This document shows, piece by piece, positions 16,995 to 38,479 of a stretch of 55,541 nt of DNA. A model generated the notes under the pieces. That model saw only the letters and a program-made list of their open reading frames with translations, made no database searches and had not been told where the DNA came from. Made by a program: the position numbers and the translations under genes. Origin of the DNA: Clostridiales bacterium (GTDB taxonomy: Bacteria > Bacillota > Desulfotomaculia > Desulfotomaculales > VENG01). The first letter of the stretch is position 1, and each line of letters opens with the position of its first letter. The DNA lies in the NCBI GenBank assembly GCA_016278505.1, contig JADQBQ010000022.1, positions 1-55,541 of the forward strand. The letters are read 5' to 3'.

Positions 16995-17840
16995 TTAAAA
17001 AATTGATGGACAAACAATATAAAGTGTGATATTTGTCATACCGTGCGCCAGGGTCAGACCCACAATTGACTTTTGTTTCCTATAAATTACGGTAAATAAT
17101 ACGGCAACTCCGAAAACAAAGGCCACGTCCAAAACGGACACGTGAGTAATGTGCAGCACCGCAAAGATGAAACTTACAAAAATCAAGGCGAATTTGTCTC
17201 CCACAGCTTTAACCGCGGTCTCATACATTATGGCACGGAAAATAAATTCTTCCAGTAACCCTGTACATATTATCAATACCAGGGCGGGAAACCAAATTTG
17301 CGCAAAGGTCAACGAAGTAACCATGGGCTCGGGCTGCAAAATAGTGTATTCTATGTATCCCAAGGGAAAACCGATGCACATGATCAAAAACTGCATGGGC
17401 AGGTTATTTAAATTTAACCCCAATTCATATGGCTTAAACCCAAGTACTCTGGTAATACCAATGGCAGATGCAAATAAAGGAGCACTGATAACTACATACC
17501 ATAGAATGGGTGGAATTTCATTAAGGGGCATGGAAAGGCTCATGATCCTCGTCAAAGGTGCCAGTACCAGTGCTAAAAGTAGAAAGTGATTTTCCTTTTT
17601 ATAGGCAAATGCAGCATGGCCGAGGAGTGCACCGAGCAGTAAAATATGCAAGAAAATCCCCAGTTTTACGTTTTGGTAAGCTACAACTATTTCCGCTGCC
17701 GTAATCCCAATGCCATAAAGCCAATAGACCCCTGTATTTGTGTCCCATTGTAGTTTCGGGCTTTTTTTTCTATTTCGCCTTTTCCTTCGCGGTAATAAAA
17801 CCGGTGTCTGCTGATGTTGGGGATCTACTATCTCATTCAT
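16995..17840 (-). CDS. CPBP-family intramembrane metalloprotease (Abi/CAAX-protease type)
   Basis: 281 residues with about eight membrane helices after a basic, proline-containing N-terminus. Catalytic motifs are complete: EE197-198 with Arg202 (EEFIFR), FAVLH ending in His230, and a third His at 266 in LAHGMTN. CPBP proteases cleave within the membrane; in bacteria many are linked to bacteriocin immunity or maturation of exported peptides. Its start overlaps the DUF1616 gene by 8 bp and the poly-Thr membrane protein follows 64 bp downstream, suggesting a functional set. The riboswitch upstream of the operon would put it under cyclic dinucleotide control. Confidence 0.86.
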   Translation of the reverse strand: MNEIVDPQHQQTPVLLPRRKRRNRKKSPKLQWDTNTGVYWLYGIGITAAEIVVAYQNVKLGIFLHILLLGALLGHAAFAYKKENHFLLLALVLAPLTRIMSLSMPLNEIPPILWYVVISAPLFASAIGITRVLGFKPYELGLNLNNLPMQFLIMCIGFPLGYIEYTILQPEPMVTSLTFAQIWFPALVLIICTGLLEEFIFRAIMYETAVKAVGDKFALIFVSFIFAVLHITHVSVLDVAFVFGVAVLFTVIYRKQKSIVGLTLAHGMTNITLYIVCPSIF

Positions 17841-18729
17841 TCTGTATCACGTCCACCCATAGATGAAGTTTGCGGTAAGGCTCCTTATCACCCTCCCGGT
17901 ACAATAAAAACTCCACCTTTAAATTCTTATGCGGTTGATTAGCTCTAAAGGTAATGGGCTTTTCCCACTTTTCTTCATGAGCCAGTGCTATGGGATATAG
18001 TTTTTTCTTCAAGCTACCACCCATGCGCACCTCAACACTGTAATCTATCTCCCTGTACTCGTGGTTAACCACTCCTAAAATAACTTTGCCTGGTTCACCG
18101 GTCTTTAGCTCCCGGGGATAACCCTCAGCCATACCTCCAGGCCCCAGGATATAAAATTCTGTAAATTTTTCTCCCACTTTAGGGGTGGTCACCACGTAAA
18201 CTATGGAACCCACGGCAAAGAGAATAGCGAATACAAGTGCTACGGAAAGGACTTTATCCAAACGGGAAAGCTTTCCCCATTGGGGAGGATTAATTTCAAG
18301 GGATAGTTCAAAGCGGTCCTCTCTCTTGATCCTCTTTCTGCGGTAATCGGCAATGACCGACATGGCGGTTATAAAAACAACAAGGGAAACAAGAATGGGG
18401 TACAGCCTTATTCCCCATGGGGTGTAATTCAAGCCCAACCCAATTAGAGGAACCACGGCAATACTAAGGCCGAAACTCAGGGCAACACGTTCTATGCCAT
18501 CCAGGTCACTTTTACCGGGAAACAAAGCGGCAATAAGTGTGTAACCAGGAAAAAAAAGTACAAAAGGAAGCCCCAATAAAACACGTAAAAATTGGATCTG
18601 GGTAAAACTGATCACTAAAATTAGTACGACAGAGAGGCCTATGATAAAAAGGAATTCGTTTTTCGCTGCAAACCTCAGAGATAAATCCCCCTTTGCCGAT
18701 CGATATGTCCGAACAAAAAACTCGACCAT
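17833..18729 (-). CDS. DUF1616-domain membrane protein
   Basis: 298 residues. Four membrane helices in the first half (FLFIIGLSVVLILVI, then LGLPFVLFFPGYTLIAALFP, the hallmark of DUF1616), a short cytoplasmic loop, one more helix near 155-175, and an extracytoplasmic beta-sandwich-like domain of about 120 residues (YSVEVRMGG and HLWVDV segments). The biochemical role of DUF1616 is unknown; it often neighbours archaeal and bacterial cell-surface genes. The ATG at 18729 has no good Shine-Dalgarno, and two other ATGs in different frames lie within 20 bases upstream, inside a small hairpin, suggesting translation-level control by the upstream riboswitch. Confidence 0.8.
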   Translation of the reverse strand: MVEFFVRTYRSAKGDLSLRFAAKNEFLFIIGLSVVLILVISFTQIQFLRVLLGLPFVLFFPGYTLIAALFPGKSDLDGIERVALSFGLSIAVVPLIGLGLNYTPWGIRLYPILVSLVVFITAMSVIADYRRKRIKREDRFELSLEINPPQWGKLSRLDKVLSVALVFAILFAVGSIVYVVTTPKVGEKFTEFYILGPGGMAEGYPRELKTGEPGKVILGVVNHEYREIDYSVEVRMGGSLKKKLYPIALAHEEKWEKPITFRANQPHKNLKVEFLLYREGDKEPYRKLHLWVDVIQNE

Positions 18730-18764: not shown

Positions 18765-18850
18765 ATTCAAGCAACCTGGCGACCATAGCTATATAGCCTT
18801 AGGCCCATGGCTTTGCGCCCCCATCTTTCGATCGGTTTGCCCATTTATAT
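18765..18850 (-). promoter_or_regulatory. Cyclic di-GMP-I (GEMM) riboswitch
   Basis: The minus strand carries the full GEMM-I core in order: GGGCAAACC, stem GAUC-GAAA-GAU, GGGGGCGCAAAGCC, then CCUAAG and UAUGG (the two halves of the 11-nt GAAA-tetraloop receptor), and GCCAGGUUGC at the 3' side. Tetraloop and receptor are thus both present, as in the Vibrio Vc2 aptamer. It ends about 35 bases before the DUF1616 start. No T-run terminator lies between, so the expression platform is probably translational (start-region hairpin CCATG/CATGG). Ligand could be c-di-GMP or, in the GEMM-Ib variant, cGAMP. Confidence 0.88.
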
Positions 18851-18903
18851 CCAGTTCCTAATCTTTCGACATTGTCTTTGGGTTATCCTGCTAATGGTTC
18901 AAT

Positions 18904-29897: not shown

Positions 29898-30050
29898 CAT
29901 CCCCGGAGAAATGCCCCAAATCACCTTTACCCTTTCCCCTGCTCAAAATTCCTGGTATCATGGAAAAAATGTGTAATTAAAATGCATATATTTTATATGG
30001 CCAAGCAAACTTAAATATCACTGAATACTATTAAAGAAGGAGTGTTTTTG

Positions 30051-31223
30051 TTGTCCAAAGCAAAAGTTTATTTTGCCAGCGTGAGGGCTCATGCCTTTGA
30101 TTATGACTACGGTATGGTGGGGAAATTTGAAGAAATATTAAACCAGGTAGACCTGGGTAATTACGTGGAAGAAGATGACTATGTTGCCCTGAAGATGCAT
30201 CTGGGCTCGCACGGAGCCTACCGCACGGTACGCCCCGTGTTTTTACGCAAACTGGTGGATGCCGTACGTGATCAAAAGGGACAACCCTTTATATGCGACA
30301 CAGTGCGCATACCCGGCCTCGAATATCTGAGAACCGCCAATAGAAACGGTATCAATGAGCTGTCCACCGGGGCACCGGTACTTATGGCCGACGGGATTTT
30401 CGGGATGGATTCGGTAACGGTTAAGACCGGCCCCATTTTAGGGGAAATAGGGGTGGCCTCGGCCATGCACGATGCCCCGTCAATGATCGTAGTTTCCCAC
30501 TGTAAAGGTCATATTGCCAGCGGGTACGGAGGTGCCATCAAGAACCTGGGCATGGGCGGCATTGCCTTTAAGGATCGGAAAGGAAATGCACAGCGGGGGA
30601 AAATGCACTTTTTGCAAAACGCCGAACTTACCTGGGACGAGGAAAAATGCAGCCAGTGCCTGCAGTGTATAAATGCCTGCCCGCACGAGGGCATAGCCTT
30701 CGACGAAGGGAACAAGCTCAATATTTACTCGGAAAAATGTGCGCGCTGCGGTCGTTGTGCCCGGGTTTGCCCGGAAGCGGCACTTATACTGCCTCAAAAT
30801 GATGAGATGTTCCAGGGTGTTCTGGCGGAAGCTGCCGGAGCGGTACTAAGTACATTTGGTAAAAACAAAGTGCTGTATGTTAATTTCATCACTGATATTC
30901 ATCCCGAGTGTGACTGTATGCCCATGGCTGATTCTGCTTTGGTGTCCGATGTGGGGGTATTGGTTTCGGATGATATAGTGGCCATCGAAAAGGCTACTTT
31001 GGATTTGATTGGCGAGGCGCAGGTTTTACAGAATTCCAAGGCCGGGGATAAGGATATTACTGAAGCCGGAAATATTTTTGAGAAGGTTCACGGTAAAGAT
31101 CCTTATATGCAGGTGAAGGCTGCGGCAAAGGCGGGGCTGGGTACGATGGAGTATGAGCTAAAGACTATTGAGTGCAAGCCCAAACCGGACGGCAGCACCG
31201 AGCCTAGGATGTTTGGACATTGA
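30051..31223 (+). CDS. DUF362-domain protein with two 4Fe-4S clusters
   Basis: About 390 residues; TTG 30051 is chosen because AAGGAG ends 8 bases before it, while a GTG at 30042 overlaps that site. The N-terminal DUF362 part has the DYVALKMHLGSHG and SHCKGHIASGYGGAIKNLGMG motifs; a bacterial 2[4Fe-4S] ferredoxin domain follows with CSQCLQCINACP and CARCGRCARVCPEAA (about 200-245); the rest returns to DUF362 (FITDIHPECDCMPMAD). Members are probably iron-sulfur electron carriers or assembly proteins; the exact role is unknown. It appears monocistronic, flanked by dispersed repeats. Confidence 0.9.
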   Translation: MSKAKVYFASVRAHAFDYDYGMVGKFEEILNQVDLGNYVEEDDYVALKMHLGSHGAYRTVRPVFLRKLVDAVRDQKGQPFICDTVRIPGLEYLRTANRNGINELSTGAPVLMADGIFGMDSVTVKTGPILGEIGVASAMHDAPSMIVVSHCKGHIASGYGGAIKNLGMGGIAFKDRKGNAQRGKMHFLQNAELTWDEEKCSQCLQCINACPHEGIAFDEGNKLNIYSEKCARCGRCARVCPEAALILPQNDEMFQGVLAEAAGAVLSTFGKNKVLYVNFITDIHPECDCMPMADSALVSDVGVLVSDDIVAIEKATLDLIGEAQVLQNSKAGDKDITEAGNIFEKVHGKDPYMQVKAAAKAGLGTMEYELKTIECKPKPDGSTEPRMFGH

Positions 31224-35470: not shown

Positions 35471-36364
35471 TTGTCGTCTTTACTTGAATTAATGAATCCG
35501 GCCCAGGTCTGCCAAGCACTGGGCATAACACCAAACGGCGTTAGAAGATTATCCAGGGAAGGCTACCTGGAAGTAAAGGATATGGTCAGATTTAAAAACG
35601 GGGACATGAGTTTATTTAGCATAAAACAAGTCCATAGCTTGTTACCGGTTATGCCTCGTATAAAACAGGCTTGGGAAACACACGATAAGTCGCGGTTTGG
35701 CGCCCGCCGGGTCTCCAAGGCCCATGTGCACAGGCACAAATCATATAATAATCAAATAAACCATAAAGAAGAGTTCTTCATGGCTACTAATGCCCTGGCT
35801 GAGAAAACCGCACAGCTTATCAAAGCCTGTTACTATCTTTTTCATTTGAACCATTACGCGAAAGCAGGCAATCAATATCTATATGATTTAAAAGAATTGG
35901 TTTTGCAGACTTTTGTGGAACAATATACTAGTGATGACCTGGTAAAGGTAAGCTTTATTGAGGGAGACAACAAGGTGCTCCTTTGCCCCGGGTGCAAGGC
36001 CCGAGCCAAGGAGCGGGGCATGAGTTACCTGGAGTATTTGGATGCTGAAGGGGCCTGCCCGAGATGCACACGGGAATATAAGTACTACAGCCTGTATGAA
36101 TTTATTATTAGCTACGATGAATACCGCTTTTGCTTTCACACCCCGTATTCCACGGCCAAAAAATGGTTTAAAAATATCGGGCTGAGGCCCCCGCAGACAC
36201 ACAAACCTCAGCGGGAAGGAGCTTACACCTTCGGCAGGTCGGTCTACGAGTCCGAGGCCCAGGTGGTGGAATTGATAGAGGTGATTGAAGAACTGCAAAA
36301 TTTCCTGGCTAATTTTGGTGTTGAGGCTTTGATAGAGACTGGTATCCGGGGCTTTTGTGAATAG
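35471..36364 (+). CDS. MerR-like HTH protein with Cys4 zinc-ribbon segment
   Basis: 297 residues, TTG start at 35471 behind GGGGGGAG. Residues about 8-35 read as a MerR/excisionase-type helix-turn-helix (NPAQVCQALGITPNGVRRLS, then REGYL). A basic linker follows (about 70-95), then a helical domain, and CPGCKAR ... CPRCTREY near 175-205 forms a likely zinc ribbon. The end is helical (VVELIEVIEELQNFL). I do not recognise the full architecture. It is probably a DNA-binding regulator. It stands alone, downstream of a 140-bp leader and upstream of a large repeat cluster. Confidence 0.7.
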   Translation: MSSLLELMNPAQVCQALGITPNGVRRLSREGYLEVKDMVRFKNGDMSLFSIKQVHSLLPVMPRIKQAWETHDKSRFGARRVSKAHVHRHKSYNNQINHKEEFFMATNALAEKTAQLIKACYYLFHLNHYAKAGNQYLYDLKELVLQTFVEQYTSDDLVKVSFIEGDNKVLLCPGCKARAKERGMSYLEYLDAEGACPRCTREYKYYSLYEFIISYDEYRFCFHTPYSTAKKWFKNIGLRPPQTHKPQREGAYTFGRSVYESEAQVVELIEVIEELQNFLANFGVEALIETGIRGFCE

Positions 36365-36384
36365 AATTTTTTTTGGGTATTCCT

Positions 36385-36805
36385 TTGGGGTCCTTTTTTC
36401 TGACAGGATTACAGGATGGACAGGATAGGGATTTTAAGAGACATGGAAAAAATTCTGGGGGCATTTCTTTGGGGTCTTACAATTTTTGACGGGATTTACG
36501 GGATTACACGGGATAGGGACTGCTAAAGCCATGGACGTGTTTTCTAAGCTAATTCTGATTAAAAATAAAGACCTTTATAGTACCATAAAGTATTTTAAAA
36601 AAACAATTATATGTATATTTTCCATAGCACGGGCCCTCTGCTAGCCTTACGATTTGCTCTTTTAAAAAATCCTGCAAATCCTGTAATCCTGTCTAAATGC
36701 TTTTTTTATTGCGCTAAATCTAAATCTCCCCTAATATCACCATAATTGCGACTGCTAAAATTAAACATGTTTTAAAAAATCCCATACATCCCGTTAATCC
36801 CGTCA
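36385..36805. repeat. GGAT-element cluster upstream of the tRNA
   Basis: Forward units at 36402-36426 (CAGGAT type) and 36488-36514 (CGGGAT type), each preceded by CTTTGGGGTC; reversed units at 36668-36693 (ATCCTG) and 36779-36805 (ATCCCG). The last ends 31 bp from the mature 3' end of the tRNA. Confidence 0.82.
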
Positions 36806-36835
36806 AAAAATGACCCTAAAGCTACGACAAAGTTT

Positions 36836-36932
36836 TGGAGGGGAAAAGTCGGAATTGAACCGGACCCCGGCCTGGGTTACAAGCCGGCCAACGGGTTTGC
36901 AGCCCGCGGGGGGCACCAGCCCCGTTTTCCCC
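36836..36932 (-). tRNA. Selenocysteine-tRNA-like tRNA with Cys anticodon GCA
   Basis: 97 nt including an encoded CCA. Parts in order: acceptor GGGGAAAA/TTTTCCCC, 8 bp; D stem GGGGC/GCCCC with a 4-base loop TGGT; anticodon stem GCGGG/CCCGT, loop CTGCAAA, anticodon GCA (36898-36900), reading UGC/UGU; long variable arm, 8 bp CCGGCTTG/CAGGCCGG with loop TAACC; T arm with the canonical loop TTCAATT, stem GT-CGG/CCGAC with one unpaired C; discriminator U. The 8-bp acceptor, tight D loop and long variable arm are tRNA-Sec features. Anticodon GCA and U73 are cysteine identity elements, whereas tRNA-Sec has UCA and G73. No selA, selB or other sel gene is in the window. Confidence 0.85.
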
Positions 36933-37129
36933 ATCTACATTATTCTAAATACCATATTCTAAACACTATCATTGAATTCCTTTATGTTTGTTATTTAATT
37001 ATTTTATAACCAGCTCTTTGTCGTTAAAAAAAATTTATAACAAAAAAATACCCTCTCTCTACGAGCGAGCACGAATACCTAGTTGCTTTGATAAAAATCT
37101 GTCTTTAAGACCCCATAGCCTGACCTTTA

Positions 37130-37880
37130 AGCATCTGGTTAATCCTGTAATCCTGTCTAAAAAAAGACCCGTAAGCCTGACCCAAATTCTTTTGATCTTT
37201 TTTGGTTTTAATCTATCTTGACGGGATTAAAGGCTTTGTATGTGGGGCTTTGAGGTAAACAATTTTTTTTGACAGGATTAACAGGATCAACAGGATTTTT
37301 TTAAAAAATAAAAACTCAATCGAAAGTCTTTATCATCTAAACAAAGTTTTGGATAAGTCCAAAGTTCTAAAGCAAACATTTAAAAATGCTTTTAAAGACC
37401 CAAAAGCAATGACCCCAAAGCATCCCATTCAATCCCGTTAATCCCGTCTAAAAACAACCCTCAAGCACGACCCCGATTTCTTTTAATTCTTTTTTTTCTT
37501 TTCAAAGAGACCCCTAAGCCATCGACCCTTAAGCATCCGGTCAATCCTGTAATCCTGTCAAAAACCGACCCGCAAGCCTGACCCAAGCTCTTTTTAATCT
37601 TTTTTTGTTTTAATCTATCTTGACAAGGATTAAAGGCTTTGTATGTCGTGCTTTGGGGACAACATTAATTCTTTGACAGGATTACAGGATCTATAGGATT
37701 TTTAAAATATTCTTTAATGACCCTAAAGCATTGTCCCCAGAGCATCCCGGTCAATCCCGTTAATCCCGTCTAAAAACAACCCTCAAGCATGACCCAAATT
37801 TTTTTAATCTTTTTCCCAAAGCGACCCCTAAGCCATCGACCCCTTAGCATCCGGTCAATCCTGTAATCCTGTCTGAAAAA
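37130..37880. repeat. Dense GGAT-element array between the tRNA and fmdE-like gene
   Basis: Units in order: reversed 37132-37158, forward 37271-37300, reversed 37423-37449, reversed 37534-37561, forward 37675-37702, reversed 37743-37770, reversed 37849-37875. The stretch 37223-37449 is a full copy in plus orientation; its centre (CAATCGAAAGTCTTTATCA, then CTAAACA) matches the centre of the inverted copy at 41253-41466. The phrase TAAGCCATCGACCC is itself repeated at about 37515 and 37830. About 1 kb (36933-37930) holds no gene. Confidence 0.82.
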
Positions 37881-37930
37881 CGACCCGCAAGCCTGACCCA
37901 AGCTCTTTTCCAAATTCTTTTCCAAGCTCT

Positions 37931-38479
37931 CTACCAGCCCCGGCTATACTCCCCCGCGCAGGGGATGCATGCATATTTACCATCCTTCACCCGGGCCCGG
38001 GCCTCCATTACATTTTCACCGCACTGGGCACACTGCACCGACCTAAAAATCTTCGCCTTAGGGGGAAGCTCCATGTCCACAGTCTGAACATCCAACAAAT
38101 CCTCCGCCGGCATCTCTAGAATTTTCGCCATGCGTTCCTCACGGCTTAAATCTTCCTGCCCTCTCCACGCGCCATCCTTTACCGCCAGGCGCAGGGCCTT
38201 TTTGCTATTTCTACTGCCGAGAGTATAAACCTGCTTACCGTAATCCCGGTAAATAAGATTTCCTTTACCCAGCGTACACCCGGTAAGGAACATAATGGCG
38301 TCCACACCGCAGGCATCATTTTCCACAATGGCCACCAATTCTTCATCCTCATCCCGAATAGCGTCCATTTGTTTAAGGGCTGTTTCAGCTACCCGGTATC
38401 CAATGGCCAAGCCGGGGCAGGAATGCCCGTGAAAATCAACACATTTTTCCCAATTGGTCTTCTCCATACACATTTCCAT
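37931..38479 (-). CDS. FmdE-family protein with C-terminal zinc ribbon
   Basis: 182 residues. The opening CVDFHGHSCPGLAIGYR is the FmdE signature, and VENDACGVDAIMFLTGCTLGKGN follows in shorter form (VENDACGVDAIMF, then TGCTLGKGN), with the conserved Cys residues that bind metal. The end has CAQCGE ... CIPCAG, a zinc ribbon typical of the longer bacterial and archaeal FmdE proteins. The family is linked to molybdenum/tungsten formylmethanofuran dehydrogenase and to Mo-enzymes in anaerobes, but a biochemical role is not proven. GGGAG precedes the first ATG; one of two further in-frame ATGs may be used. It is preceded by a strong terminator, so it likely has its own promoter. Confidence 0.9.
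   Translation of the reverse strand: MEMCMEKTNWEKCVDFHGHSCPGLAIGYRVAETALKQMDAIRDEDEELVAIVENDACGVDAIMFLTGCTLGKGNLIYRDYGKQVYTLGSRNSKKALRLAVKDGAWRGQEDLSREERMAKILEMPAEDLLDVQTVDMELPPKAKIFRSVQCAQCGENVMEARARVKDGKYACIPCAGEYSRGW

Follow-up and report, generated by a model that had tools for sequence, protein, structure and literature searches.

The closest described relatives of the gene reported here are the selC* tRNAs-Cys, which were recovered from metagenomes (Mukai et al. 2017, Nucleic Acids Res., as summarized in the review PMC7609411) and which combine a Sec-like structure with U73, a GCA or UCA anticodon and a bulged T stem. According to this review, their hosts are anaerobic Firmicutes, Thermodesulfobacteria, Nitrospirae and Proteobacteria, and the T stem comprises 4 pairs and a bulged A51a, the bulge being dispensable for charging. 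The partner genes selB* or cysS* accompany selC* in some delta-proteobacteria only and do not define the family. Independently, YedE, YedF and a subfamily of LysR regulators are established selenium candidates (PMC5322559), among which tRNA-Cys is unmentioned. In the literature searched, a scope outside which the original 2017 NAR paper fell, no statement of a selC*-yedE/yedF neighbourhood was found.

Here, a gene of this group is described in the window, i.e. the whole stretch of 55,541 nucleotides analysed, which belongs to a genome of the class Desulfotomaculia (hereafter the window genome). The gene is real, functional-looking and of a rare, known kind. Two aspects are notable, namely that selC* is linked to selenium loci in several phyla and that the standard tRNA-Cys may have been lost here; that linkage and the missing canonical gene are the two results that go beyond the papers surveyed.

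Structure of the tRNA gene

The gene occupies the minus strand and reads, from 36932 to 36836, GGGGAAAACGGGGCUGGUGCCCCCCGCGGGCUGCAAACCCGUUGGCCGGCUUGUAACCCAGGCCGGGGUCCGGUUCAAUUCCGACUUUUCCCCUCCA; its parts are listed in Table 1. ARAGORN called a tRNA-Cys(GCA) at 36840-36932, the sole tRNA in the window, and the Rfam tRNA-Sec model RF01852 matched the gene with 57.4 bits (gathering score 47, E 4.5e-9). The first-pass annotation had read the locus as a tRNA of Sec shape with Cys identity. This reading is confirmed by the score above threshold in the covariance check that it had proposed and by U73 and GCA, and the length of 97 nt, the 8-bp acceptor, the D arm, the 8-bp variable arm, the anticodon, the discriminator and CCA were all recovered from sequence, fold and ARAGORN. 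The minor tRNAs-Cys with a bulged T stem that it had mentioned correspond to the selC* group reviewed in PMC7609411. Regarding the T stem itself, the bulged C was correctly seen; the stem has 5 pairs plus the bulge and not 4.

The folding energy is mildly better than that of shuffled sequences (z -1.7), which is not decisive alone; a chance fold is ruled out because stem pairing is conserved among relatives (see below) rather than by folding energy. No consensus promoter or terminator stood out in the flanks of the gene.

Table 1. Positions of the tRNA gene, its structural parts and adjacent features in the window
Feature	Position	Strand	Evidence or remark
selC*-type tRNA-Cys(GCA) gene, 97 nt, CCA encoded	36836..36932	-	ARAGORN, RF01852, conserved in relatives
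Acceptor stem (8 bp), 5' strand GGGGAAAA	36925..36932	-	partner 36840-36847, covariation
Acceptor stem (8 bp), 3' strand UUUUCCCC	36840..36847	-	pairing and covariation
D arm, 5-bp stem GGGGC/GCCCC, 4-nt loop UGGU	36910..36923	-	fold and covariation
Anticodon arm, 5-bp stem GCGGG/CCCGU, loop CUGCAAA	36891..36907	-	fold and covariation
Anticodon GCA, reads UGU/UGC	36898..36900	-	ARAGORN
Long variable arm, 8-bp stem CCGGCUUG/CAGGCCGG, loop UAACC	36867..36887	-	fold
T arm GU(C)CGG/CCGAC, 5 pairs, bulged C (36862 or 36863) after second pair	36848..36865	-	fold, alignment of relatives
Discriminator U73 and encoded CCA	36836..36839	-	sequence; U73 in 42/45 loci
Dispersed repeats of GACAGGATTA(A)CAGGAT type, flanking the tRNA on either side, without a gene	36360..37910	.	
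FmdE-domain protein with zinc finger	37931..38479	-	Pfam PF02663, PF01258; next upstream gene, same strand, ~1 kb off

Genomic surroundings

In the window, the tRNA gene stands alone within a dense cluster of short, dispersed repeats in both orientations, and no co-directional gene follows it closely. Its neighbours encode the FmdE-domain protein, a carbon-nitrogen hydrolase and a malic enzyme. No selenium gene adjoins it at this locus, and yedE is absent from the window genome. A functional link to the FmdE gene was considered and rejected, FmdE not being a conserved neighbour of selC*. The earlier suggestion that the gene may have been acquired, made from its position between repeats, is not supported: several families of the class carry such a gene, and the repeats around it are short, dispersed elements. 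Elsewhere in the window, a c-di-GMP-I riboswitch aptamer (18767-18851, minus strand, 76.5 bits) was detected upstream of the gene of a 298-aa membrane protein (17833-18729).

Conservation across relatives

When the GTDB contig collection was scanned for a GCA anticodon combined with a long variable arm, 88 loci matched; 45, loci from the window's class included, were analysed as homologous tRNAs. U73 is found in 42 of them and an encoded CCA in 41, while the anticodon loop CUGCAAA, which the search pattern demanded, is identical in every relative found. In 40 distinct relatives, 313 of the 320 acceptor-stem cells are paired, versus ca. 242 after shuffling, with GC, AU, CG and UA as alternatives and several pair types per position; the D and anticodon stems covary likewise. 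U73 and compensating stem changes are common to some 40 relatives, which belong to Bacillota, Nitrospirota and Deltaproteobacteria, so that the window tRNA is no pseudogene; the comparison of related genomes proposed in the first-pass annotation showed intact helices and a real, conserved gene.

Among Bacillota, the homologous tRNA occurs in Desulfofundulus, Desulfovirgula, Desulfoscipio, Carboxydothermus and Ammonifex, and further loci were found in many Nitrospirota and Deltaproteobacteria and in single MAGs of other phyla. The window's class has a selC*-type gene in 13 of its 113 genomes, spread over several families. The T-stem bulge has the same site in Desulfotomaculia, where it is a C in a stem of 5 pairs, and in Deltaproteobacteria, where it is an A in a stem of 4 pairs; the T stem of the Nitrospirota loci has no bulge.

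Two further groups of tRNA genes were observed. Loci in Bacillota MAGs (L018, L023, L032 and L050) carry a selC*-like tRNA-Cys with U73 in a different gene context, in which the eighth acceptor pair is an A-G mismatch. A conserved tRNA-Sec-like gene with a GCA anticodon occurs in Cloacimonadota (L020, L025, L049, L057, L058, L080, L086 and L088); it has only about 6 clean acceptor pairs, ends in CUC(U/G)C(A/G)GCCA and not in U-CCA, and often adjoins a rubrerythrin-like gene.

Selenium genes in the neighbourhood of selC*

A yedE, yedF, selB or selenium LysR gene lies within 1.5 kb in 24 of the 45 selC* loci versus 1 of 30 control loci taken as canonical tRNA-Cys, the loci being related and such counts not independent events. 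By its sequence, the one control locus with such a neighbour (L217) resembles a chance pattern match. A third set, composed of 30 tRNA loci of the window genome, gave selB-type matches in 6/30, mostly from one locus adjoining EF-Tu-type genes, which are relatives of SelB.

The co-directional gene located directly downstream of selC* differs between lineages: it is yedE in Desulfoscipio and Ammonifex, yedF in Nitrospirota, selB in Deltaproteobacteria and one Nitrospira, and a double-cubane reductase gene in Carboxydothermus. Five loci (L012, L022, L052, L089 and L093) have selB in this position. In Nitrospirota, a selenium-associated LysR regulator is encoded upstream. The ribosome site and start of the downstream selenium gene follow the 3' end of selC* by ca. 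20-80 nt in relatives, and the neighbour families were confirmed by NCBIfam (TIGR04112, TIGR03527, TIGR00475, NF040772 and NF040786). The presence of yedE as such was rejected as a marker of selC*, yedE scoring above the cut-off in 88 of the 113 genomes of the class; only adjacency is informative.

Through this recurrent coupling, to the double-cubane reductase and the selenium LysR regulator as well as to yedE, yedF and selB, an orphan tRNA family becomes connected with the supply of selenium and acquires a testable role, in which cysteine decoding would be regulated together with selenium use. As a separate observation, genes for a double-cubane-cluster reductase and its activase were repeatedly found next to selC* and yedE/yedF (L014, L079, L082, L273 and L274), a context hinting that this reductase may have a selenium-linked role.

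Search for a canonical tRNA-Cys in the window genome

The Rfam tRNA search returned 48 tRNAs in the window genome, none of which was called as Cys when ARAGORN was run on those loci. A strict pattern for the canonical tRNA-Cys matched 82 of the 113 genomes of the class; the other 12 selC* genomes were all among them, but the window genome was not. A relaxed pattern retrieved the canonical gene from 16 of 16 control relatives, among them several without a match to the strict pattern, and likewise found none in the window genome. Nearly all selC* genomes outside the class also possess the canonical gene. G139, G142 and G143 were considered as further genomes devoid of it and rejected as incomplete MAGs, in which 31, 14 and 16 tRNAs, respectively, were found.

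In relatives, the common tRNA order is Asp-Phe-Gly-Cys. BLAST with this cluster from the nearest relative detected a cut tRNA-Asp and a tRNA-Gly at two contig ends, and no tRNA-Cys fragment at any contig end of the window genome. More specifically, contig 45 of the genome ends inside tRNA-Asp (L305:1-50) and contig 5 begins at tRNA-Gly (L211:1-89), tRNA-Phe presumably falling in the gap between the two. The site following tRNA-Gly, which is the place of tRNA-Cys in the nearest relative and in others, is on-contig and occupied by molybdopterin-oxidoreductase-like genes instead; beyond these, synteny is restored as far as tRNA-Leu(UAA). None of the canonical tRNA-Cys loci of 20 relatives adjoins rRNA genes, a common cause of assembly gaps; in some relatives the canonical gene sits elsewhere, indicating that it can move. 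Absence of the canonical gene is nevertheless unproven, and a copy that has moved may have escaped detection, because the assembly examined has no contig below 3,425 bases and because tRNA-Asp, -Phe, -Ile and one -Ala are likewise lacking or truncated.

On these data, the chances are about even that the window genome has lost its canonical tRNA-Cys, leaving selC* alone to decode every UGU/UGC codon in the proteome. In that case, nature would have exchanged a standard elongator tRNA for one whose acceptor branch has 13 pairs and whose kind occurs otherwise in selenium-metabolism operons. The extra, conditionally used tRNA-Cys envisaged in the first-pass annotation fits most relatives, in which the canonical gene is kept, and may be wrong here, where none was found.

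Selenocysteine machinery and cysteinyl-tRNA synthetase

The genome check proposed earlier recovered an ordinary UGA-reading tRNA-Sec(UCA) at contig 35:25008-25101, one full-length SelB (C36) and, adjoining it, SelA, which was named from its N-terminal sequence. There is also one full-length CysRS (C46), with 2 private substitutions as compared to 0 to 13 in relatives. A CysRS adapted to selC* was therefore rejected in favour of an ordinary enzyme, as was a selB* or cysS* partner of the delta-proteobacterial sort, the genome having a single full SelB and a single full CysRS. Serylation and Sec synthesis need G73. The window tRNA has U73 and GCA in place of G73 and UCA, and the UCA gene is located elsewhere in the genome, so that it was not retained as a tRNA-Sec; insertion of Sec at Cys codons, one of the roles initially put forward, was discarded given U73 and the separate, complete set of intact tRNA-Sec(UCA), SelA and SelB.

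The true tRNA-Sec(UCA) is itself an integration site, its 3' part being duplicated ca. 11 kb away (L001:1501-1598 and L005:1501-1598, at ca. 25.0 and 36.0 kb of contig 35); the intact copy is immediately followed by a tyrosine recombinase gene.

Proposed function and alternative explanations

The window gene quite probably encodes a selC*-type tRNA-Cys that is charged by CysRS and acts as an elongator reading UGU/UGC, possibly as the only tRNA-Cys. The tRNA would be transcribed and processed, and charging with cysteine by the ordinary CysRS is most likely because both main CysRS identity elements, U73 and the GCA anticodon, are present; EF-Tu would then carry Cys-selC* to the ribosome, where it would serve UGU/UGC codons. 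The original role was probably cysteine decoding co-regulated with selenium supply, since selC* sits in selenium-metabolism loci of other genomes, and where it precedes selenium genes it was probably expressed alongside the uptake and handling of selenium. The window genome has lost the selenium linkage and yedE, and the general decoding of cysteine may have passed to selC*. If it is the sole tRNA-Cys, general use follows by necessity, the organism encoding many Cys-containing proteins such as the iron-sulfur DUF362 protein at 30042-31223.

A mild form of this explanation, overlapping with it and involving the same molecule and mechanism, is that selC* is not the sole tRNA-Cys but a minor, redundant one with no special role, the canonical gene being on an unassembled or discarded small contig. 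That the canonical gene is kept by each of the other 12 selC* genomes in the class, and by nearly all elsewhere, is in line with this, as are the contigs below ca. 3.4 kb that the assembly lacks and the other missing tRNAs. The usual canonical site is however on-contig and vacant, no canonical fragment occurs at any contig end, and the relatives' canonical loci (0/20) do not adjoin rRNA genes; we regard redundancy as a real possibility, falling somewhat short of an even chance. Delivery by SelB, of which the tRNA would be a ligand through its 8-bp acceptor, would instead place Cys at particular UGU/UGC codons preceding SECIS-like hairpins, as a selenium-free substitute for Sec. Such a role would suit the Sec-tRNA architecture, the selB gene directly downstream in five loci and the selB* pairing reported in PMC7609411, but it is improbable: UGU/UGC are read as Cys anyway, with no obvious gain for a GCA anticodon, the single SelB of the genome must serve tRNA-Sec, and selC*, if the only tRNA-Cys, must work with EF-Tu.

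Less probable still is a regulatory RNA or processing signal, in which a tRNA-like leader would control or process a downstream selenium mRNA. While yedE, yedF, selB or the double-cubane gene starts shortly past the tRNA 3' end in relatives, the U73, CCA and anticodon conserved there suggest charging, which also makes the purely regulatory RNA considered in the first-pass annotation unlikely, and the window tRNA has no downstream gene of this sort. As for a tRNA pseudogene or chance fold, which the flanks without consensus promoter or terminator and the surrounding repeats might evoke, it has a very slim probability in view of the intact helices, the compensating changes across phyla and the Rfam score.

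If selC* is indeed the sole tRNA-Cys of this organism, it would be essential and would constitute a natural test of whether a long Sec-type acceptor branch serves general translation with EF-Tu, as well as a ready-made scaffold for genetic-code engineering.

Comparison with known tRNA kinds

Canonical bacterial tRNA-Cys shares with the window tRNA the GCA anticodon in a CUGCAAA loop, U73 and CCA, and differs from it by a 7-bp instead of an 8-bp acceptor, a T stem devoid of bulge and a short loop where the window tRNA has an 8-bp variable arm; the 7/5 acceptor/T stems of the canonical kind are thus not found here. Bacterial tRNA-Sec (RF01852) has in common with it the long acceptor branch, the short D loop and the long variable arm, and the Rfam threshold is passed, but GCA replaces UCA, U73 replaces G73 and a separate true tRNA-Sec exists in the genome. 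The allo-tRNAs, which are 8/4 and 9/3 tRNA-Ser-like molecules (PMC7609411), resemble it in their unusual acceptor/T-arm split and long variable arm, yet carry serine identity elements where the window tRNA has cysteine identity. Finally, the selC* tRNAs-Cys match it in the 8-bp acceptor, the tRNA-Sec-like D arm, the long variable arm, U73, GCA and the bulged T stem. The differences are a bulged C with 5 pairs, at the same place as the bulged A51a with 4 pairs described for that group, the absence from the window genome of the delta-proteobacterial partners selB* and cysS*, and a canonical tRNA-Cys not found beside selC*. The window gene either belongs to the selC* tRNA-Cys group or is a close variant of it, and does not represent a new kind of molecule.
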